The translations under genes and the position numbers were made by a program. DNA of 64,000 nucleotides from Saccharothrix deserti (lineage in GTDB: Bacteria > Actinomycetota > Actinomycetes > Mycobacteriales > Pseudonocardiaceae). The stretch spans positions 1-64,000 of the forward strand of contig NZ_VKAB01000021.1 in NCBI RefSeq assembly GCF_009769385.1. Direction: 5' to 3'. Shown piece by piece: positions 668 through 53,907 of this stretch. The notes beneath the pieces were generated by a model that was given only the letters and a program-made list of their open reading frames with translations, did not search any database and was not told the origin of the DNA. Numbering within the stretch: the first letter of the stretch is position 1; each line of letters starts with the position of its first letter.

Positions 668-1906
668 GTGGACGCCGGCGGGGTGGTGCGCGAGTACCTG
701 GTGCTCGGGCTGCGGCTCGACCGCCTGCACCCCGGTCTGGTCGACTCGTTCACCGGCGACCGGGCGCTGCGCCGCGCGGTGGACAACGAGCCGAGGCAGC
801 ACCCGGCGGCGCTGGCCGAACGGGCCGCGCTGCTACGTCGAGAGCTGCGCGGAGTCGACCTGGAGCCGGAGCGCAAACGGTTCCTGGACGCCCACCTGGT
901 CGCCGCCGAGACCACCGCGCGCAAGCTCGCCGGGGTGCGGATCGGATTCGTGGACGAGGTCCGGTCGTACTTCCAGGTCGACATCCGCCCCGGCCACCCC
1001 GACACCTACCGCCGGGCGCACGCCCTGGTGGACGAGTTGCTGCCGGGACCAGGCACGCTGGCGCAACGGCTGGCCGACCACCGCGCCCGGGACGAGGTGC
1101 CGCCGCGTCGGCTCAAGGCCACCGTGCACGCCCTGTCCAGCGCGCTGCGCGACCGCGTCCGGCAGCGGTTCGAGCTGCCCGCGCACGAACTCGTGGAGTA
1201 CGAGATCGTCACCGACAAGCCGTGGAGCGGGTTCAACTACTACCTGGGCGACTTCCGGTCGCGGGTGGCGGTCAACGCCGACCTGGGCCACCGGATGTCG
1301 AACCTGCCGCACCTGGTCGCGCACGAGTCCTACCCCGGCCACCACACCGAGCACTGCCGCAAGGAGGTGGGCCTGGTCGGCAAGCGCGGGCACGCCGAGC
1401 AGTCGCTGTTCCTGATCAACTCGCCGCAGTGCCTGATGGCGGAGGGCATGGCCGAACTCGGGCTGCACGCCGTGGTCGGTCCGGGGTGGGGCCGGTGGGC
1501 CCAGGACATCGTGGCCGACCTGGGCCTGCGGATGGACGGCGAGCTGGCCGAACGGGTCGAGAGCGCGCTGTCCGGGCTGCTCACGGTGCGCCAGGACGCG
1601 GCCCTGATGCTGCACGACCGGCGTGCCCACCCGGACGACGTGGTCGACTTCCTGTGCCGTTGGCTGCTCGTTCCCGAGCGCCGCGCCCGCCACATGCTGC
1701 GCTTCCTCGGTGACCCTCTGTGGCGGGCGTACACGACGACGTACGTGGAGGGCGTGCGGCTGGTCCGCGCCTGGCTCGACCTGCGTGAGCCCACGGACAC
1801 CTTGAGTGACCGTTATGTACGACTTCTCGACGAGCCGTTGACGCCGGCGGCGTTGGCGGAGGAGGTCGAGGCGGGGGTGCCCTGGTTGCCCCGCGACGCT
1901 CTGTGA
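668..1906 (+). CDS. DUF885 family protein (putative metallopeptidase-like)
   Basis: 412 residues if started at this GTG. GTG codons about 18-21 nt downstream, at VREYLVLGL, fit the usual family N-terminus equally well, and no strong ribosome site separates them. The family signature HESYPGHHTEH lies near residue 220, followed by a second conserved block NSPQCLMAEGMAELG. This HExxPGHH...E arrangement is typical of DUF885 and resembles a zinc-binding peptidase site. No signal peptide or membrane segment is visible, so a cytoplasmic location is expected. The substrate is unknown. It is transcribed alone, with at least 380 bp before the next gene. Confidence 0.8.
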   Translation: MDAGGVVREYLVLGLRLDRLHPGLVDSFTGDRALRRAVDNEPRQHPAALAERAALLRRELRGVDLEPERKRFLDAHLVAAETTARKLAGVRIGFVDEVRSYFQVDIRPGHPDTYRRAHALVDELLPGPGTLAQRLADHRARDEVPPRRLKATVHALSSALRDRVRQRFELPAHELVEYEIVTDKPWSGFNYYLGDFRSRVAVNADLGHRMSNLPHLVAHESYPGHHTEHCRKEVGLVGKRGHAEQSLFLINSPQCLMAEGMAELGLHAVVGPGWGRWAQDIVADLGLRMDGELAERVESALSGLLTVRQDAALMLHDRRAHPDDVVDFLCRWLLVPERRARHMLRFLGDPLWRAYTTTYVEGVRLVRAWLDLREPTDTLSDRYVRLLDEPLTPAALAEEVEAGVPWLPRDAL

Positions 1907-2145
1907 CCGGCCTGGTCCACGCCCGGCGGCACCGGCTCTGATCTGCGTGGACGAGGGCTTGTTGCGCCGATGGGACGGCTCGTGGTCGCCCGTGGGCACC
2001 CGATGTGGCCATCTTTCCGACGTTTTGCGACGAAGTGACGAGTTGACGAATCACCTGTGTGGCTGCCTGCACAAGAGGGACCTGCGGAGGTAACTTCCGG
2101 TTGGCGGGACGCGTCCACTGCGGACCGCGCAGGGAGGCCCTGATC

Positions 2146-2202
2146 GTGGCTGTGATGAGCGCGAGGGGACCGGCACCCGGCCCTCGTGGTCGGTACGCCT
2201 GA
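2146..2202 (+). CDS. Possible 18-residue leader peptide upstream of PIN-PhoH
   Basis: GTG-started frame reading MAVMSARGPAPGPRGRYA. It has an AGGGAGG ribosome site 8 nt upstream, and its stop codon falls inside the loop side of the hairpin at 2191-2219. Gly/Pro/Arg-rich, no known family. The geometry resembles a regulatory leader peptide, but it is too short to separate from chance on sequence alone. In mycobacteria a small antitoxin gene overlaps phoH2; this peptide is much shorter and does not overlap. Confidence 0.25.
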   Translation: MAVMSARGPAPGPRGRYA

Positions 2203-2219
2203 GCTAGTGGGGCGTACCG
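2191..2219 (+). repeat. 9-bp perfect hairpin in the PhoH leader
   Basis: Arms cggtacgcc (2191-2199) and ggcgtaccg (2211-2219) with an 11-nt loop. It lies 68 nt before the PhoH GTG start and overlaps the end of the small leader frame. It could be an RNA structure that controls phoH or an operator. No U-tract follows, so an intrinsic terminator is unlikely. Confidence 0.5.
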
Positions 2220-2286
2220 GTCGATCGGGGTGGTGCCTGGCCCAGCGAGGAGCGGACGCGGGTGCCGCGTTCGTGAGGGAGTTGCC

Positions 2287-3663
2287 GTGAACGCACGACG
2301 ACCCGCGAGCCGTTCCTCAGGCTCATCGCGCAGCACGTCCCGGCGCCGTGGCGCGCCGACGACCAACACGTACGTGGTGGACACGTCCGTGCTGCTCTCC
2401 GACCCCCTGGCCACCACGCGGTTCGCGGAGCACGAGGTCGTGCTGCCGCTCGTGGTGATCAGCGAGCTGGAGGGCAAGCGGCACCACCCGGAACTGGGTT
2501 GGTTCGCCAGGGAGGCGTTGCGCCTGCTCGACGACTTGCGGCTCCAGCACGGTCGGCTGGACAACCCGGTGCCGATCGGCGACCACGGTGGCACGCTGCG
2601 CGTCGAGCTCAACCACTCCGATCCGGAGGTGCTGCCCGCGGGTTTCCGCACGGACTCCAACGACGCCCGGATACTGGCCTGCGCGCTCAACCTCGCGGCC
2701 GAGGGCAACGTCGTCACGCTGGTCACCAAGGACATGCCGCTGCGCGTCAAGGCGGGCGCGGTCGGTCTCGCCGCCGAGGAGTACCGGGCCCACGACGTCA
2801 CGTTGTCGGGGTATTCCGGGATGTCCGACGTGGACGTGGACCAGTCCGTGGTGGACGCGCTGTACCGCGAGAGCGTGATCGACCCGACGCTGTTCGACCT
2901 CGGTCACATCGCCGAGCTGCCGTGCCACAGCGGGTTGCGCCTGCTGGCGGGCACGTCGAGCGCGTTGGGCCGGGTGACGCCGGACAAGCAGATCCGGCTG
3001 GTGCGGGGCGACCGCGAGGCGTTCGGGCTGCACGGCCGGTCGGCCGAGCAGCGCGTGGCGCTGGACCTGCTGCTCGACACCGAGGTCGGCATCGTCTCGC
3101 TGGGCGGACGGGCCGGCACCGGCAAGTCGGCGCTCGCGCTGTGCGCGGGCCTGGAGGCGGTCATGGAACGCCGCCAGCACCGCAAGGTCGTGGTTTTTCG
3201 TCCACTGTATGCAGTAGGCGGGCAGGAGTTGGGATACCTGCCCGGTTCCGAGAGCGAGAAGATGCAGCCGTGGGCGCAGGCGGTGTTCGACACCCTCGGC
3301 GCGCTGGTCAGCCAGGACGTGGTCGAGGAGATCATGGACCGCGGCATGCTGGAGGTCATGCCGCTGACCCACATCCGGGGCCGGTCGCTGCACGACTCGT
3401 TCGTGATCGTGGACGAGGCGCAGTCGTTGGAGCGGAACGTGCTGCTCACCGTGCTGTCGCGGCTGGGCTCCAACTCGCGGGTGGTGCTGACCCACGACGT
3501 GGCGCAGCGCGACAACCTGCGCGTCGGCCGGCACGACGGGGTGGCGGCCGTCATCGAGAAGCTGAAGGGGCACCCGCTGTTCGCGCACATGACGTTGACG
3601 CGGTCGGAGCGTTCTCCGATCGCCGCACTGGTGACCGAGATGCTGGAGGACTACGCCTCCTGA
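2287..3663 (+). CDS. phoH2: PhoH family protein with N-terminal PIN domain
   Basis: 458 residues. The GTG start is chosen because GAGGGAG lies just upstream; earlier in-frame starts lack one. After a basic, Ser-rich leader of about 25 residues, a PIN ribonuclease domain runs to about residue 160 (acidic motifs [33 protein letters not shown]). The C-terminal half is the PhoH P-loop ATPase with Walker [10 protein letters not shown] (Lys about 280) and Walker B VDEAQS (about 376). PIN-PhoH fusions in mycobacteria act as RNA helicase/ribonuclease. Cytoplasmic. No antitoxin-sized partner overlaps it here. The gene is monocistronic, with a hairpin terminator at 3733-3767. Confidence 0.92.
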
Positions 3664-3732
3664 CGGTGAGGTCGCGACTTCCCGGGTGACCTCGCCCGCC
3701 GTCTGCGGAGCAGCGGCCGTCCAACACAGTCG

Positions 3733-3767
3733 AAAGGGGGGCTTTCCCGGGCGGAAAGCTCCCCTTT
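3733..3767 (+). terminator. Strong hairpin terminator after phoH2
   Basis: Arms 3733-3747 and 3753-3767 pair over 15 bp with a single G-U, closing a 5-nt loop (cgggc). The run of A/G and C/T makes the stem purine/pyrimidine biased. No clear U-tract follows, as is usual in actinomycetes. Confidence 0.75.
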
Positions 3768-3792
3768 CCCTGGTGTTAAGCCTTTTCCATTC

Positions 3793-4506
3793 GTGCCGGT
3801 CGGGAGGTTCGGCGTCGGTACGCTCGCCCTTGTGTTGACGATGCCGCAGGCCGCCGTCGGGGGATTTTCGGCGCAGTACGCACTGGGTTACGGCGCCCTC
3901 GGCATCGGTATCGCCGCCGCCGTGGTCGCCGCCGGGCTCGCGGTCCGCGCGCAGGCCAGCCGGTCGAAGGACCGCCAGCAGTTGGCCGCCGAGGACGTGC
4001 AGGCCACCAAGCAGCTCCTCGACGCCGCGCCGGGCAGCACCGCGCCGCCGCAGCTCGCCAAGTGGGAGCAGCACGCCACCGAGACCGCGCGCACCCAACT
4101 CGACCTGTACCTGCGCAACTCCGAAGCCGCGTTGCGGCAGAGCGCCACCAGCTTCCGGGTCGGCATGGCCGCCGCCGCGGTCGGGTTCCTGGTCGTCATC
4201 GGGTCGTTGGTGTGGCTGCTCGCGGTGGACCGGGACGTGGCGCTCGCGGGCGTGATCAGCGGCGTGGTGTGCGAGGCGATGGCGGCGCTGTTCTTCGCCG
4301 AGACCAGGGCGACCCGCGCCCGCACCGCCGCCATGCTCGACCGGGCGCAGTCCGAGGCCGACCGGGTGGTGCGCGCCCGAGCCGCGCTCGCCGTCGCCGC
4401 CGACATCGCGGACGTGGCGACGCGGGAAGCGTTCCTGGCCGACATCGGCCGCTGGCTGCTCGGCGGCGAAGTGCCGGCGCCCACGACGACGGAGGCAGTG
4501 CAGTGA
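3793..4506 (+). CDS. Three-TM protein resembling TRADD-N-associated membrane domain family
   Basis: 237 residues from this GTG. ATG at 3841 (residue 17) is an alternative, and neither has a clear ribosome site. One membrane segment lies at about residues 31-52, followed by a charged helical stretch and a paired-TM unit (about 122-144 and 147-166), preceded by YLRNSEAALRQSATSFR and followed by ETRATRARTAAMLDR. That layout matches my recollection of the TRADD-N-associated two-TM family described from conflict systems in cyanobacteria and actinobacteria; this is a family-level guess. Its TGA overlaps the GTG of the next gene by 4 bp, so the two should be made together. Role unknown; it probably acts at the membrane with the SBP-VWA partner. 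Confidence 0.65.
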   Translation: MPVGRFGVGTLALVLTMPQAAVGGFSAQYALGYGALGIGIAAAVVAAGLAVRAQASRSKDRQQLAAEDVQATKQLLDAAPGSTAPPQLAKWEQHATETARTQLDLYLRNSEAALRQSATSFRVGMAAAAVGFLVVIGSLVWLLAVDRDVALAGVISGVVCEAMAALFFAETRATRARTAAMLDRAQSEADRVVRARAALAVAADIADVATREAFLADIGRWLLGGEVPAPTTTEAVQ

Positions 4507-6257
4507 ACCGGATGCCGATCGTGCTCGGCGCGGTGGCCGTGGTGTCGATCCTGCTGGGCGTCATCTTCCTGAGCGGGCCGTCCGAGAGCCCGGCCGACGA
4601 CGGCTGCCTGAAGCTGGGCATGTGGTCGTCGGACGAGAAGGCGCCGGTGCTCCAGGAGATCTCCCGCCGCTACAAGGAGTCCGACCGCAAGACCGACGGC
4701 AAGTGCGTCGACGTCGCCGTGTCCGTGTACTCCTCGCAGGGCTCGGTGGACGTGCTGTCCGACGCACCCGGCGCCGACCCGAACGCGAAGCCGGACATCT
4801 GGAGCCCGTCGTCGCGGTACTGGGTCGACAGCGTGCGCACGGCGATCGCGACCAGGCCGGGCCGGGTGCGGTCGGTGCCGGAGAACCCGCCGACGCTGGC
4901 CACGTCGCCGATCGTGATCGCCATGCCGGAGCCGATGGCCCGCGAACTGGGCTGGCCGGAGGGTGCCATCGGGTGGCGGGACATGCTGGCGTTGGCGCAG
5001 GACCCGAACGGCTGGGGCTCGCGCGGCGAGCCGTGGGGCGCGTTCAAGATCGGCAAGACGAACCCGACGTTCTCCACCACCGGCCTGCTCGCCACCATCG
5101 CCACCGCGACCGCGCTGTCCGGCTCGAACGAGGCGCTGACGCTGCCCGCGCTGGACGCCCCGGAGGTCGCGAGCGGGCTGCGGGCGTTGGAGAGCAGCGC
5201 CGTGCACTACGGCAAGCACTCCTCGGTGTTCGTCCGCAACCTGTACGCCGCGGACCAGGAGGGGCGGGCGCTGGAGTACGTCAGCGCGGTGGCGTTGGAG
5301 GAGAAGGTCGTCCTCGACTACAACCAGGGCATCCTGGTCGGCGACCCGCCCGTCAAGACCACGCCGCCCAAGGTGAAGCTGGCCGCGGTGTTCCCGACCG
5401 ACGGCACGACCGTGTCGGACAACCCCGCGATCGTCGTCGACGCCGAGTGGGTCACCGACGAGAAGAAGCGGGCCGCCGAGGACTTCCTGAAGTACGTGCA
5501 GGAACAGAAGGACCTGTTCACCGAGGAAGGTTTCCGGGACGGCGAGGGCAATCCCGGAAAGCGGCACGCGGTCGAGAACGGCACGCCCGCCAGCCCGTCG
5601 TTCCGGCTGGTCCGCACGCCCGCCTTCGAAGTGGCGCAGGGCGTGCGGAACCTGTGGCAGCGCAACCGCAAGCGGGCCAACGTGCTGCTCGTCGTGGACG
5701 TGTCCCGGTCGATGGAGGAGAACGTCGATGGCGTCGGCCGGTCCCGGCTGGCGCTCGCCAAGGACGCCGCCATGCTCGTGCCCGAGCAGCTCACCGAGGA
5801 CGACACGCTGGCGTTGTGGGAGTTCAGCAGTCCGTTGGGCACCGATCCGCGGCCCTGGCGGGAACGGGTCGCCGCCGGGCCGGTTGGCGTGGTGCGCGAC
5901 GAGTTCGGACGTGAGGTGGAAGGGCTCCAGCCGACCGGGGCGACCGAGCTGTACGAGTCGACGCGGGCCGCCGTGGCGGACGTGCGCGACCGCTACGACC
6001 CGACCCGCATCAACGCGGTGGTGCTGCTGTCGGACGGGCGACAGGAACCGCGCTCGGACGGCCTGCCGTCGCTGGAGGACAGCCTGCGTTCGGGCGACCG
6101 GGACCGTCCGGTGCGGGTGTTCTCCATCGCGTACGGCGACGAGGCCGACCGCGACGCGCTGGAGAAGATCTCCACGGCCGCGCGCGGCGGCTACTACGAC
6201 TCCACCGACGCGGCCAGGATCCAACAGGTCATGGCCGACGTGCTGTCGAATTTCTAG
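4503..6257 (+). CDS. Membrane-anchored solute-binding domain fused to von Willebrand A domain
   Basis: 584 residues. The GTG start overlaps the previous stop (GTGA). One N-terminal membrane helix (residues about 5-23) anchors the protein with its bulk outside. Residues about 35-370 look like an extracellular solute-binding fold (LKLGMWSSDEKAPVLQEI, SPIVIAMPEPMARELGW). Residues about 395-584 form a VWA domain with the complete MIDAS: DVSRS (D399), a conserved Thr in PTGATEL, and VVLLSDG. SBP-VWA fusions are widespread in actinobacteria without an assigned substrate. There is no transporter permease beside it, so a sensing or adhesion role fits better than import. The coupled upstream gene encodes a three-TM protein. 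Confidence 0.8.
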   Translation: MNRMPIVLGAVAVVSILLGVIFLSGPSESPADDGCLKLGMWSSDEKAPVLQEISRRYKESDRKTDGKCVDVAVSVYSSQGSVDVLSDAPGADPNAKPDIWSPSSRYWVDSVRTAIATRPGRVRSVPENPPTLATSPIVIAMPEPMARELGWPEGAIGWRDMLALAQDPNGWGSRGEPWGAFKIGKTNPTFSTTGLLATIATATALSGSNEALTLPALDAPEVASGLRALESSAVHYGKHSSVFVRNLYAADQEGRALEYVSAVALEEKVVLDYNQGILVGDPPVKTTPPKVKLAAVFPTDGTTVSDNPAIVVDAEWVTDEKKRAAEDFLKYVQEQKDLFTEEGFRDGEGNPGKRHAVENGTPASPSFRLVRTPAFEVAQGVRNLWQRNRKRANVLLVVDVSRSMEENVDGVGRSRLALAKDAAMLVPEQLTEDDTLALWEFSSPLGTDPRPWRERVAAGPVGVVRDEFGREVEGLQPTGATELYESTRAAVADVRDRYDPTRINAVVLLSDGRQEPRSDGLPSLEDSLRSGDRDRPVRVFSIAYGDEADRDALEKISTAARGGYYDSTDAARIQQVMADVLSNF

Positions 6258-12580: not shown

Positions 12581-12600
12581 GGTCGGTGATAGTCCTCGTC

Positions 12601-13515
12601 ATGAGATCCACCAGAACCGCGATCGCGTCGGGCGCCCTGGCCTCGGCGATCGTGGGCGCGTCCGTACCGGTGACCGGTATGCTCCAGGCGTATCCGCTGC
12701 TCACGGGGCAGGCGATGCGGTACGCGTTGGGTGGGATCGCGCTGCTCGGGTGGATCTGCCTGCGTGGCGGGCGGCTGCCGGTGCCGGGGCGGCGGGACTG
12801 GCCGGCGCTGCTCGGGCTGGTGACGACCGGGATGCTCGGGTTCAACGCGTGCGTGCTGTACGCGCAGCGGTACGCCGAGCCGGGGTTCGTCGCGGCCGTG
12901 CTCGGGGCGAGCCCGTTGGTGTTGGCGCTGGTCGCGCCGTTGGTGGCGGGGCGGAAGCCGGCCGTGTTCGCGGTGGTGGGCGCGGTGGTCGTGGTCGGCG
13001 GGGTGGTGGTGCTGTCCGGCGGCGGGTCGTGGCACGGGCCGGGGCTGCTGCTGGCGCTGTTGACGATGGCGGGCGAGGTGTCGTTCACGCTGTTCGCGGT
13101 GGGTGTGGTGCGGCGGCTGGGTGGTGCGGCGGTGGCGACGTGGTGCTGCTTCACCGCGGCCGTGGCCGGTGGGGTGCTGGGGACGGTGTTCGGCGGGTGG
13201 CAGGTGCCTTCGGTGCGTGAGGGCACGGCGCTGGTGGTGCTCGGGTTCGTGCTGACGGCGGTGGCGTTCGGGCTCTGGTACTTCGCGGTGGCGCAGTTGG
13301 GTGCGGACCGGGCCGGGGTGCTGATCGGGCTGATGCCGGTGGCGGGGTTGGTGGCTTCCGTCGCTCTGGGTGCGCAGGAGCTGACGGCGGTGGCGGTGGT
13401 GGGCGCGGTGGCGGTGGCCTTGGGGTGCGTGATCGGGTTGCGGGGCCGGACGGCCGTCACCGACCGTCCGCCCCAGGCCGACCCGAATGCCCAGCTCGCG
13501 CGTTCCGAACGTTGA
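12601..13515 (+). CDS. EamA family (DMT superfamily) transporter
   Basis: 304 residues with ten predicted membrane helices in two five-helix EamA repeats. ATG 12601 is preceded by a candidate operator rather than a strong ribosome site. EamA proteins export amino acids, amines or other small metabolites. Its divergence from a MocR regulator suggests an amine or vitamin-B6-linked ligand, but none is proven. The last codons run directly into the palindromic repeat cluster, so its stop codon may belong to a degenerate repeat unit. Confidence 0.88.
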   Translation: MRSTRTAIASGALASAIVGASVPVTGMLQAYPLLTGQAMRYALGGIALLGWICLRGGRLPVPGRRDWPALLGLVTTGMLGFNACVLYAQRYAEPGFVAAVLGASPLVLALVAPLVAGRKPAVFAVVGAVVVVGGVVVLSGGGSWHGPGLLLALLTMAGEVSFTLFAVGVVRRLGGAAVATWCCFTAAVAGGVLGTVFGGWQVPSVREGTALVVLGFVLTAVAFGLWYFAVAQLGADRAGVLIGLMPVAGLVASVALGAQELTAVAVVGAVAVALGCVIGLRGRTAVTDRPPQADPNAQLARSER

Positions 13516-13540
13516 ATTCGGGGGTCCTGGACACACGCAT

Positions 13541-13746
13541 CCTGAACGTAGGACTCTCGCGCTCTGAACGTAGGACACACCCGCCGCGAACGTAGGACAC
13601 ACGCGAGAGTCGAACGTTCGGGTGCCGAGAGTCGAACACTCAGGTAGGGCGAGTTCAACGCTCAGGTCGGGGCACGCGTGTTCTGAGCGTTGAACTCATG
13701 GGGTCTGAGTGTTCGACTCTCGGGGTCTGAGGGTTCGACTCTCGGG
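13541..13746. repeat. Cluster of nine short palindromic repeats at a convergent gene junction
   Basis: Units of about 15-20 bp with consensus cgagagtcgaacNCTCAGG or its complement fill the whole gap between EamA and fumC. Two pairs are exact inverted copies with private cores: 13625-13643 (ccgagagtcgaacactcag) with 13705-13723, and 13651-13665 (gagttcaacgctcag) with 13683-13697. A third pair (13541-13559 with 13604-13621) matches at 16 of 18 positions. The nested pairing could give a cloverleaf-like RNA from either strand and so terminate both genes. A second cluster lies at 52762-52939. Not a CRISPR: units are not evenly spaced and there are no spacers. Confidence 0.85.
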
Positions 13747-15141
13747 TCAGCGGCCGCCGTTGGCCATGCGGAGGACGTCCAGGGCCTCGTCCAGTTGGGA
13801 CTCGGTCAGCTTGGTGGGGACGTGGCCGCGCTCCAGGACCACCTCGCGGATGGTTTTGCGTTCCTTCAGGGACTGCTTCGCGATCGAGGCCGCCTCTTCG
13901 TAGCCCAGGTAGCGGTTCAGGGGGGTGACGATCGACGGCGACGACTCGGCGTACTCGCGCATCCGGTCCACCTGCGGTGCGGTGCCGATCAGGACCTTGT
14001 CGGCGAGCAGGCGCGCGACGGCGGCCAGGAGCCGGGAGGATTCGAGGACGTTGCGGGCGATTACGGGCAGCATCACGTTGAGCTGGAAGTTGCCCTGGGA
14101 GCCGGCGAACGCCACCGCCGCGTCGTTGCCGATCACCTGCGCGACCACCATCATCGTGGCCTCGGAGATGACCGGGTTGACCTTGCCGGGCATGATCGAC
14201 GAGCCTGGTTGGAGGTCGGGCAAGGCCAGCTCGCCCAGGCCGGTGCGGGGGCCGGAACCCAGCCAGCGCAGGTCGTTCGCGATCTTGTAGAGGCCGACGG
14301 CGGTGGCGCGGAGCTGGCCGGAGATCTCGACCACGCCGTCTTGGGTGGCCTGCGCCTCGAAGTGGTCGCGGGCTTCGGTCAGGGGTAGGCCGGTGACGGC
14401 GGCCAGCTCGGCGGAGACGGCCGCGCCGAAGCCGGCCGGCGCGTTCAGGCCGCTGCCGACGGCGGTGCCGCCGATCGGCAGCTCGGCCAGGCGCGGCAGC
14501 GACGACGTCAGGCGCTCGATGCCGTACCGGACCTGGGTGGCCCACGCGCCCACCTCCTGGCCCAGGGTGATCGGCACGGCGTCCATCAGGTGCGTGCGAC
14601 CCGACTTCACCAGCGACGTCCAGTCGGCGGCACGGGCGTCCAACACCGAGACCAGGTGCTCGAGGGCCGGGATCACGTCACGCGCCACCGCCTCCGTCGC
14701 CGCGACCCGCAGCGTGGTCGGGAACGTGTCGTTGGACGACTGCGAGGCGTTGACGTGGTCGTTCGGGTGGACTTCGCGGCCCAGCGCGCGGGTGGCCAGG
14801 GTGGCGATGACCTCGTTCGCGTTCATGTTCGACGACGTGCCGGACCCGGTCTGGAACACGTCGACCGGGAAGTGCGCGTCGTGCTCGCCCGCCGCCACCG
14901 AGTCGGCGGCTTCGGCGATGGCCGACGCGACTTCGGGTTCCAGCACCCCCAGCCGCTCGTTCACCCGCGCCGCCGCGGCCTTCAGCAGGCCGAGCGCGCG
15001 GATCTGGGCACGCTCCAGACCCCGTCCGGACACCGGGAAGTTCTCCACCGCGCGCTGCGTCTGCGCACGCCACAGCGCGTCGACCGGCACCTTGACCTCG
15101 CCCATGGTGTCGTGTTCGACGCGGTACTCCTGTTCAGCCAT
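13747..15141 (-). CDS. fumC: Class II fumarate hydratase
   Basis: 464 residues, full family length. It converts fumarate and water to L-malate in the TCA cycle; cytoplasmic homotetramer. Signature [11 protein letters not shown] (about residue 317), plus [16 protein letters not shown] and SSNDTFPT motifs of the fumarase/aspartase superfamily. ATG start is followed by [19 protein letters not shown], typical of actinobacterial FumC. It is convergent with EamA and separated from it by the repeat cluster, which begins to read as a terminator 3 bp after its stop codon. glpX follows downstream, as near fum in mycobacteria. Confidence 0.95.
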
Positions 15142-51898: not shown

Positions 51899-52761
51899 GG
51901 GCCGCGTCCCGGCGGTGGCAGGCTGTGCTGGTGACAGGATGGGCGACCGTGCCCGAGCTCAGAACCACCACGCTGGTCGACGCCCCGCTGCGGACGGTCG
52001 CCGCCGCGTTGCTGGACGCCCGACTGCTGACCCGCGCGGTCCGGGGCCTGGGCGTGCGGATCTCGGGTGGGCCGGTGCTGTACGCCGGGGCGAGGCTGGC
52101 CGGGTCGGTGGGGCCGGTCAACGGGACGCTGGTCGTGACGCGGGCCGACACCACGGGCGTGTCGGCCGAGCTGGTCGGTGGGCCGTTGCCCCGGTTGACG
52201 CTGGTCACGGACCTGCTGCACACCGGCGGCGGCACGATGGTGGTCGACTCGGTGGAGTGGTCCAGCCCCGGCGGGCCGTTCGGACGCCTGGCCGACGTCC
52301 TCGTCGGGCGCGGGTTGGCGTTGAAGGTCCTGGAAGCGCGCGCTTCAGCGGTGTCGCAGCGCAGCGTCGAGCTGCTGAGCGCGCGCGTAGTAGTAGGTGC
52401 CGCGATCATCCGCGACGGCCTCCTGCTCGCCCAACAACGCTCGTACCCCGCCGAAGCCGCGGGCAAGTGGGAGCTGCCCGGCGGACGCGTGGAACCCGAC
52501 GAGACCGATCACGCCGCCGTGATCCGCGAGTGCTCCGAAGAGCTGGGCGTGACCGTCGCCCCGGCCGACCAGATCGGCCCCGACGTCCCCCTGCGCACCG
52601 ACCTGCTGCTCCGGGTGTACGCCGCCCACCTCACGACCGGCGAACCCGAACCCGTGGAACACCGCGCCCTCCGCTGGCTCACCGCAGCCGACCTCGACAC
52701 CGTCGACTGGCTCCCCGCCGACCGCGTCCTACTCCCCGCCCTGCACCCCCTCCTCCCCTGA
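51895..52761 (+). CDS. SRPBCC-like domain fused to Nudix hydrolase
   Basis: 288 residues from GTG 51895 (overlapping the kinase stop as GTGA); GTG codons at 51931 and 51949 are alternatives. Residues about 20-150 resemble an SRPBCC/START-type ligand pocket (TTTLVDAPLRTVAAALLDARLLTRAVRG). Residues 165-288 are a Nudix domain whose box is complete (GRVEPDETDHAAVIRECSEELGV), MutT-like. Nudix enzymes remove oxidised or noncanonical nucleoside diphosphate compounds; the N-terminal pocket could bind a lipid or metabolite. Its co-transcription with a two-component system is unusual. Confidence 0.85.
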   Translation: MRAASRRWQAVLVTGWATVPELRTTTLVDAPLRTVAAALLDARLLTRAVRGLGVRISGGPVLYAGARLAGSVGPVNGTLVVTRADTTGVSAELVGGPLPRLTLVTDLLHTGGGTMVVDSVEWSSPGGPFGRLADVLVGRGLALKVLEARASAVSQRSVELLSARVVVGAAIIRDGLLLAQQRSYPAEAAGKWELPGGRVEPDETDHAAVIRECSEELGVTVAPADQIGPDVPLRTDLLLRVYAAHLTTGEPEPVEHRALRWLTAADLDTVDWLPADRVLLPALHPLLP

Positions 52762-52939
52762 CCCGAGAGTCGAACACTCAGACCCCGAGAGTCGAACCTC
52801 CAGGCAGGGCGAGTCGAACGCTCAGACCCCGAGAGTCGAACACTCAGGTGGGGTGAGTTCTACGTTCGTGTCGACGCGAATGCAGAACTCGGGGTACCTG
52901 AACGTTCGACTCTCGGGACCTGGAGGTTCGACTCTCGGG
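52762..52939. repeat. Second cluster of palindromic repeats at a convergent junction
   Basis: Eight units of the family seen at 13541-13746 fill the gap between the Nudix gene and trpS. Units at 52784-52804 and 52919-52939 are exact 21-bp inverted copies with a private cctcca/tggagg core. Those at 52828-52848 and 52897-52917 match at 19 of 21 positions, and 52855-52868 with 52877-52890 at 12 of 14. The order gives nested hairpins readable from both strands, as expected of a bidirectional terminator. First unit begins right after the Nudix stop, last unit ends 2 bp before the trpS stop. Confidence 0.85.
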
Positions 52940-52941
52940 GG

Positions 52942-53907
52942 TCAGGCCAGGCCGGACATGCGGAGGGCGGCGTCCAGGCGGTGGCGGCAGCGTTCGCGGG
53001 AGCGGTCGGCGCCGTGCGCGCGGGCGCGGTCGAGTTCGGCCGGGTCGTCCAGGAGGCGCTGTGTCCCTTCGCGCACGGGCCGCAGTTCCTCGACCACCGC
53101 CTCGGCGGTGACCTCCTTCAACTGCGAGTAGTCCTTGATCGTGCCCGCCAACTCCTCCGGGTCCTTGCGCGTGCACGCGGCCAGGATCTCCAGCAGGTTA
53201 GCCACGCCCGGCTGCTCGTCCGGCGCGTAGCGCACCTCGCCCCGGTCGTCCGTCACCGCACGCTGGATCTTGCGGCGCACCAGGTCCGGCGGGTCGAGGA
53301 CGAACACCGTGCCGGCGGCGTCCTTCGCGCTCTTCGCCATCTTCCGCGACGGATCGGCCAGGTCACGGACCCGCGCCGCGGTCGGCGGCACGACGGAGCG
53401 CGGCATCACGAACACCTCGCCGTACGTGCCGTTGAACCGCCGCGCCAGCACCCGGGCCAGCTCGACGTGCTGCCGCTGGTCGTCACCGACCGGCACCTCG
53501 TGCGCGCCCTGCAGCAGGATGTCGGCCGCCATCAGCACCGGGTAGGTGAGCAGGCTCAACCGGACCGACGACCGCCCCGCCGACTTCTCCTTGAACTGGA
53601 TCATCCGGGCGGCCTCGCCGTACGTGCAGGTGCACTCCAACACCCACGTCAGCGCCCCCAGTTCGCGCACCAGGTCGGACTGCACCGCCACCGACCTCGG
53701 ATCGACGCCGGCGGCGATGAGCACCGCCAACTGCTCCCGGGTCAGTGATCGCAGCCTCGACGGGTTGTGCGACGTCGTCATCGCGTGCAGGTCGCTGATG
53801 AAGTAGACGTCCTCTTCGGTGCCCTCGGCGGCCCACCGCCTGACGGCGCCGAGGTAGTTGCCCAGCTGGACGTGCCCGGACGGGGTGATCGCGGACAGCC
53901 TGATCAT
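52942..53907 (-). CDS. trpS: Tryptophanyl-tRNA synthetase, attenuation-controlled
   Basis: 321 residues. Class I synthetase motifs: PSGHVQLGN (HIGH) and KMAKS (KMSKS). It charges tRNA-Trp with tryptophan. The short length, compact N-terminus and the Trp-Trp leader peptide upstream resemble the auxiliary TrpRS1 of Streptomyces coelicolor, which confers indolmycin resistance and is controlled by ribosome-mediated attenuation. Whether this is the auxiliary or the only enzyme cannot be told from the window. Converges on the Nudix gene across a repeat cluster. Confidence 0.92.
   Translation of the reverse strand: MIRLSAITPSGHVQLGNYLGAVRRWAAEGTEEDVYFISDLHAMTTSHNPSRLRSLTREQLAVLIAAGVDPRSVAVQSDLVRELGALTWVLECTCTYGEAARMIQFKEKSAGRSSVRLSLLTYPVLMAADILLQGAHEVPVGDDQRQHVELARVLARRFNGTYGEVFVMPRSVVPPTAARVRDLADPSRKMAKSAKDAAGTVFVLDPPDLVRRKIQRAVTDDRGEVRYAPDEQPGVANLLEILAACTRKDPEELAGTIKDYSQLKEVTAEAVVEELRPVREGTQRLLDDPAELDRARAHGADRSRERCRHRLDAALRMSGLA

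Follow-up and report, generated by a model that had tools for sequence, protein, structure and literature searches.

The window, i.e., the whole stretch of 64,000 nucleotides that we analyzed, contains a gene for an EamA-family transporter (12586..13515, + strand; Pfam PF00892, E 1.7e-23) that converges on fumC, encoding a class II fumarase (13747..15141, - strand; PF00206, E 4.4e-96, and PF10415). The gap between them (13516-13746), from the EamA stop at 13515 to the fumC stop codon at 13747, is filled by a repeat with a period of 22 bp. Scanning with a position weight matrix (PWM) resolved ten units from 13502 to 13746, in the order + + + + - - - + + +, with successive spacings from 13502 of 37, 22, 22, 19, 22, 22, 34, 22, and 22 bp; a laxer scan adds one further degenerate unit near the left end. 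The leftmost unit (13502..13524, +), a PWM match of the type that we call S, with the core GAACGTTGAATTC, contains the EamA stop codon (C-terminus ...QLARSER*), and a similar unit lies at the EamA stop in other carriers of the repeat. A unit remnant (13525..13538, +; part of GTCCTGGACACACGC) follows where the spacing is 37 instead of 22, and next to it are three + units of the GAACGTAGGAC type (13539..13605; PWM matches at 13539, 13561, and 13583). These meet three - units (13602..13668; S unit at 13646-13668) in a tail-to-tail joint with 19-bp spacing, and a head-to-head joint, i.e., S to S, with 34-bp spacing leads on to three + units (13680..13746; S unit at 13680-13702), the last of which directly adjoins the stop codon of fumC.

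The middle and right arms make up an imperfect hairpin (13601..13747), with exact arms at 13625-13643/13705-13723 (19 of 19) and 13651-13665/13683-13697 (15 of 15). An earlier note on this DNA had quoted these two inverted pairs and had described the gap as built from one motif in both orientations; both observations are confirmed, with a unit of about 22 bp and with the gap being one locus of a genome-wide family. Its further statement that each copy has an exact partner goes too far, since the outer hairpin pair and the leftmost + units have none. When both strands of 13529-13746 were folded, as the earlier note had suggested, the z scores were -8.4 (+ strand) and -6.8 (- strand), with none of 200 shuffles of either strand as good, and the outcome under which the proposal was to be given up, paired copies no better than shuffled sequence, did not occur. 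The scan for U-tracts or terminator-like sites across the fumC locus (13300-13950) returned none, and the Rfam search returned nothing at gathering score, with two microRNA matches at 19.9 of 71 and 17.5 of 93 bits.

A second array (52762-52939) fills another tail-to-tail gap, between a NUDIX-domain gene (51949..52761, +; PF00293, E 1.6e-17) and a gene for a class I tRNA synthetase, here called trpS (52942..53907, -; PF00579, E 3.4e-50, for which Pfam gives W or Y). Its units run - - - - - + + + in the scan, forming a left arm of five - units (52762..52872, -) and a right arm of three + units (52873..52939, +), each with its S-type unit innermost (52850-52872 and 52873-52895, respectively). 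Altogether, 12 motif matches lie in the window, six per array, versus 3.36 expected, and 0 of 100 shuffles reach 12.

A dispersed repeat with its own grammar at gene ends

Two forms of the motif have 141+121 and 75+66 exact matches in the 10.83-Mb genome to which the window belongs, and the reversed patterns have none. We placed units with a PWM trained on this genome, and genes with a codon-usage script, in a sample of 1.264 Mb comprising C1:1-660000, C5:1-400000, parts of C4 chosen for known matches, and the window. This identified 240 units in 44 clusters, while the same threshold gave 9 matches in 660 kb of simulated sequence; dropping six single-match clusters left 38 arrays, 24 with two arms and 14 with a single arm.

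Arrangement of the units follows a strict grammar, both in this genome and in relatives, where we counted in 200 kb of each of five genomes. Neighbors in the same orientation up to 80 bp apart are spaced by 22 bp in 178 of 185 cases here and in 113 of 113 in the relatives; tail-to-tail joints measure 19 bp in 17 of 17, and head-to-head joints 33 or 34 bp in 7 of 14 here and 8 of 12 in the relatives. The S unit (core GAGCGTTGAAYTC and variants) comes first in 54 of 63 arms of at least three units, and in 33 of 35 such arms in the relatives, and is found at later arm positions in 0 of 173 and 2 of 112, respectively. The commonest arm in this genome has three units, about 66 bp, and accounts for 40 of 75 arms of all lengths. 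By eye, GTAGG-type units tend to lie near S, and GTTCG-type units near stop codons, in the head-to-head arrays of C1, C4, and C5; the tail-to-tail arrays of the same sequences show a mixed order of the two types.

Placement relative to genes was assessed in a census of C1, C5, and the window, covering gaps of at least 1 bp and arrays of at least two units, with overlapping gene pairs excluded. Arrays occupy 13 of the 139 convergent gaps, 16 of the 543 co-directional gaps, and 1 of the 169 divergent gaps; when only gaps of 100 bp or more are considered, the figures are 11 of 53, 16 of 230, and 1 of 114 (Fisher tests: convergent versus divergent, 1.4e-5; co-directional versus divergent, 0.015; convergent versus co-directional, 0.007). 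Of the 29 convergent or co-directional gaps that are occupied, 23 have their array no more than 20 bp from a stop codon, a plain count that gap-filling arrays enter necessarily; in co-directional gaps the array is closer to the upstream stop than to the next start in 12 of 16 cases and not in the other 4. The gap-class counts and the proximity to upstream stops indicate that the arrays are mainly 3'-end elements, and not simply elements of convergent gaps. The earlier note had asked whether copies sit preferentially in tail-to-tail gaps; they do prefer gene 3' ends and tail-to-tail gaps, and are not placed at random with respect to gene orientation.

One exception to extragenic placement is an arm at C15:159298-159364, where three repeat units lie in frame inside a gene for a UvrD/PD-(D/E)XK helicase-nuclease. 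An arm is present in frame in the linker between the UvrD and PD-(D/E)XK parts in this genome, G014, G022, and G002, and absent from G003 and G024, i.e., present in 4 of 6 genomes, which shows that an arm can be present or absent at a locus. These proteins have 1102 to 1193 residues, and the scan recognizes two or three units in each arm-bearing genome. The linker is too variable for the ends of the insertion to be defined, and no target duplication was established for insertions of the repeat. We also considered this stretch as an RNA gene and rejected the idea; it gave no Rfam match and is a protein gene holding an arm.

Clade restriction and turnover of positions

A survey of 297 genomes of the family demonstrated that the single-unit pattern is frequent in this genus alone, the 272 genomes of other genera having 0 to 2 matches each, about as many as the reversed control. 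Within the genus, 14 of 25 genomes are carriers: 11 core carriers with at least 123 pattern matches each, together with G024 (94), G007 (37), and G021 (8). The 14 carriers are monophyletic, with a support of 96, in a fumC+trpS tree. The exact S core occurs 90 times in the genome under study (reversed control 0); the other core carriers have 68 to 187 copies each, G021 has 7, G024 has 2, and G007 has none, and a single copy occurs across all 11 non-carriers. The sister group formed by G024, G007, and G021 uses other dialects of the repeat, e.g., GGACGTACGACTCGC, and GAGCGCATGACACGC in G021. At the trpS gap of G021 we also observed a strongly divergent dialect, CTGAGCGCATGACACGCGCGGC, that retains the 22-bp period and the inverted arrangement, and of which the scan recognized only 3 units. 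In the open literature, searches for exact strings of the motif led to papers that appeared unrelated, searches by topic showed no description of it, and the part of the S. espanaensis genome paper that we consulted does not use the word "repeat."

Orthologous gaps differ in how consistently they are occupied. All 14 carriers, and none of the 11 other genomes of the genus, have an array at the trpS gap. Ten of the 11 core carriers have an array at the fumC gap, 8 of them as a single arm, and the number of units varies; the eleventh, G017, has no array there, and its EamA and fumC genes overlap by 4 bp. Among the non-carriers, three have EamA-fumC gaps without an array, of 90 bp (G010), 52 bp (G016), and 6 bp (G023), and in four others (G006, G009, G011, and G015) the convergent genes overlap by 62 bp, leaving no gap between them; the two genes are thus set apart by the array in 10 of 11 core carriers versus a 62-bp overlap in these four. 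Across a 200-kb syntenic region, the gaps hold arrays in 5 of 5, 6 of 7, 1 of 6, 1 of 6, 4 of 4, and 2 of 5 comparable genomes, from which we conclude that some positions persist and others are patchy.

Folding, pairing, and ordinary hairpins

We folded both strands of 36 arrays of at least three units. The predicted folds of two-arm arrays are strong, with mean z scores of -10.0 for tail-to-tail arrays, -11.5 for head-to-head arrays, and -9.8 for arrays with both kinds of joint, whereas single arms average -0.44 (range -5.8 to 2.2; 26 strand folds of 13 arrays). Since lone arms do not fold, and one of them sits inside an open reading frame that runs on past it, termination by a lone arm is unlikely. 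This qualifies the role as a bidirectional terminator that the earlier note had thought likely: it is supported to the extent that two-arm arrays are predicted to fold on both strands and that an array takes the place of a hairpin at two gaps, and it does not extend to the 14 of 38 arrays with a single arm, or to the arm in the helicase gene.

The two gaps concerned, individual loci rather than a general survey, are the trpS gap and gap 137 of the syntenic region, where the array stands in place of the ordinary GC hairpin of relatives. Behind the trpS stop, the best fold of any 60-nt window in the first 80 nt has a median of -41.5 kcal/mol for the 11 array-free genomes and of -16.2 for the 14 with arrays; a narrow margin separates the two sets (-25.1 versus -24.3). 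Gap 137 contains an ordinary GC hairpin of -30.6 to -38.5 in five genomes; in G024 an eleven-unit array runs from stop to stop, and the best 46-nt fold, -26.5, lies within the array. At gap 187 of G000 and G014, an array was added beside an ordinary hairpin. The fumC-gap array is no replacement either, because a strong fold is present in the end of EamA (a GC-rich 50-nt fold of -30 kcal/mol or better in the coding end in 7 of 11 core carriers, including the array-free G017) and because the genes overlap in four non-carriers.

A general shortage of other hairpins at array-bearing 3' ends was considered and rejected: the effect was large in unmatched comparisons and nearly disappeared with matched windows. 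With matching, array-bearing convergent ends are only slightly more often without other hairpins (105 of 5000 draws as weak), and co-directional ones showed no shortage (2360 of 5000 draws). In windows from -20 to +30 at the stop, convergent ends with arrays fold more weakly than array-free ends (-15.8 versus -27.1), and two-arm and single-arm gaps differ little in their other hairpins. The array hairpin itself would close only once most of the array had been read.

The earlier note also held that the private matching cores of inverted pairs, each change being complemented in the partner, mean that pairing and not primary sequence is kept. The likeness of nested partners, 15.06 of 19, indeed exceeds that of non-partners (13.63), tandem neighbors (14.65), and random units of other clusters (13.35), and 0 of 20000 within-locus reshuffles gave a value as high; this excess is mostly explained otherwise, because S units lie innermost in head-to-head arrays. 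Compared with same-rank arms of other loci in this genome, one of six classes is in excess (120 of 10000), with the others at 1586 to 4952. Outside S units, the core dinucleotide matches in 21 of 24 partners and likewise in 21 of 24 same-locus non-partners; the relatives have 15 of 20 partners versus 12 of 20 same-locus non-partners. These same-rank and same-locus controls removed most of the covariation in this genome, and we no longer take it as proof of pairing. Partners do exceed reshuffles in the head-to-head arms of relatives (18, 810, and 46 of 10000 for ranks 1-3) and at the trpS gap of 13 genomes (230, 475, and 0 of 20000), and as both comparisons mix genomes, species dialect alone could produce these excesses. 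The S pair of the trpS gap is TTCAAC/GTTGAA in most genomes and TTGAAC/GTTCAA in G003 and G017, a difference that took either two changes or a single conversion from one arm to the other. Selection may act on pairing at S pairs. Transitions among partner mismatches, as G-U pairing would lead one to expect, show a weak and uneven excess.

Origin of the arrays and comparison with known systems

The reading that we favor, to which we give about an even chance, is that of a clade-specific dispersed repeat resembling REP/BIME, with inverted pairs of polar arms adopted at some gaps as bidirectional 3'-end hairpins. The basic piece is a polar arm, with one S unit followed by two or more 22-bp units. 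Most such arms lie directly after a stop codon, and they occur either singly or as inverted pairs. Presumably, REP/BIME-like copying disperses them, the copies last mainly at the 3' ends of genes, and some homogenizing process maintains their likeness within a species; where two arms face each other, a long hairpin is predicted for the transcript of either strand. The array of the trpS gap and that of gap 137 most likely end and protect both mRNAs, although termination itself is something we infer. The mobile or self-copying origin that the earlier note had mentioned as a further possibility gains from these data, since the repeat is dispersed and has the look of a self-copying element. Carriage by phages or plasmids was examined and rejected (29 stretches of viral contigs with one match each and none with two; no match in the phage and plasmid collections), and none of the three enzyme families tested, i.e., Y1 transposase, reverse transcriptase, and integron integrase, tracks the repeat. 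Y1_Tnp (PF01797) is present in 5 of 25 genomes, 3 of the 14 carriers (this genome included) and 2 of the 11 non-carriers, and RVT_1 in 4 of 14 carriers and 6 of 11 non-carriers.

The alternatives below overlap with this reading and with one another, so that the weights given to them are not exclusive and do not sum to one. The arrays could serve no function for the host, being purely selfish or passive repeats that are tolerated behind stops, where they do least harm, and that form hairpins as a consequence of inverted insertion. We regard this as rather improbable. It would fit the patchy orthologous gaps (two gaps with arrays in 1 of 6 genomes and one in 2 of 5), the insertion in a variable protein linker, the turnover of sequence, the nearly negative outcome of the matched-window test, and the addition beside an existing hairpin at gap 187; it sits poorly with the occupation of the trpS gap in every carrier, with the absence of the ordinary hairpin from the array bearers at that gap and at gap 137, and with the rigid unit spacing of diverged copies. 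Rather unlikely, in our estimate, are binding sites for a DNA-binding protein, with S as a nucleation or end site and phased 22-bp units, of about two turns each, bound side by side, the arrays serving as a roadblock or insulator at gene ends and the hairpins being by-products of inverted site order. The rigid 22-bp spacing, the fixed tail-to-tail joint, a skeleton common to the dialects, the nearly constant single S at one end of each arm, and the existence of single arms that do not fold all speak for such sites, and a co-evolving factor would account for the species dialects; the arm tolerated within coding sequence and the array in place of a hairpin at two gaps speak against them. The fixed grammar (nearly always one S per arm, the 22-bp phase, and the fixed tail-to-tail joint) does point to a putative recognizing factor. 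A dedicated trans-acting system, either a protein that binds DNA or an enzyme that copies a template of 22 nt, that recognizes S and writes or maintains dialect-specific caps behind stops is a speculative idea that we think very doubtful. If true, it would amount to a gene-end marking system that co-evolves with the repeat in each species and has displaced hairpin terminators.

That the arrays are an RNA fold maintained by compensatory change, i.e., a bidirectional terminator selected for pairing, overlaps with the favored reading and is quite unlikely as formulated. The two exact nested pairs, the strong folds of both strands, the double changes at the trpS-gap S pair in G003 and G017, and the partner excesses over reshuffles in relatives' head-to-head arms and across the trpS gap of 13 genomes would all follow from it; the cross-genome excesses are confounded by species dialect, the matches of partners in this genome are in excess of those of same-rank arms from other loci for only one of the six classes, and are not in excess of those of non-partners from the same locus, and single arms exist. 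Integron-like attC sites were suggested by the position of the units behind stop codons and by the S cores, some pairs of which fit the attC core consensus, GTTRRRY/RYYYAAC. Several other S pairs break this consensus, and the integron integrase model TIGR02249 is over its cut-off in 0 of 25 genomes, with weaker matches in all 25 and likewise in all 14 control genomes, which leaves this origin highly improbable. We also dropped a tRNA-derived origin, which had been suggested by the resemblance of the TTCGANTC-like core of one dialect to a T-arm and for which the analysis comprised a tRNA scan.

Returning to the REP/BIME-like reading, the REP unit is a single palindrome of about 35 bp, and BIMEs have alternating orientation with fixed joints. 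The repeat described here differs in its unit, a 22-bp direct repeat led by an S unit, in that a lone arm forms no hairpin, and in the lack of a correlated Y1 transposase among the 25 genomes. It resembles REP/BIME in being dispersed, high in copy number, extragenic (with one intragenic copy seen), limited to a group of species, arranged in alternating orientation with fixed joints, and able to form hairpins when paired. The portions of the REP/BIME source that we consulted likewise describe many short extragenic copies, often between convergent genes and species-specific (PMC1525189). The closest functional analogy is with the inverted pairs, with dialects, of the neisserial DNA uptake sequence (DUS): in the consulted portions of two papers, DUS has dialects among related species, and its inverted pairs are linked with terminators behind genes (PMC2397512, PMC3630211). 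The present repeat shares the dialects and the inverted pairs at gene ends; unlike DUS, which are single motifs of 10-12 nt that are needed for transformation and in some cases lie inside genes, it forms phased 22-bp arrays nearly confined to 3' ends. Ordinary bidirectional GC-rich terminators have the same position and a predicted hairpin on both strands, as two-arm arrays do and single arms do not; in contrast to them, the arrays are built from a dispersed repeat family, have stems of several 22-bp units, and at the fumC locus have no U-tract. The MIRU elements are tandem intergenic repeats in an actinobacterium, some of which overlap stop codons, and have longer units in one orientation between co-directional genes; the inverted pairing grammar sets the present repeat apart from them as so described.

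The repeat is bounded by a clade, and close relatives offer orthologous gaps that lack arrays, ordinary hairpins in the corresponding places, and distinct species dialects; for this reason the long-standing question whether REP-like repeats become working gene ends by exaptation is testable here. The same comparison makes testable what keeps dispersed copies alike within a genome. At the trpS gap, the position is kept and similarity from common descent is no longer visible: in a descriptive comparison of 10 genomes, the likeness of non-S units is 0.751 between trpS gaps of different genomes, 0.750 between different gaps of different genomes, and 0.785 between the fumC and trpS gaps of the same genome.
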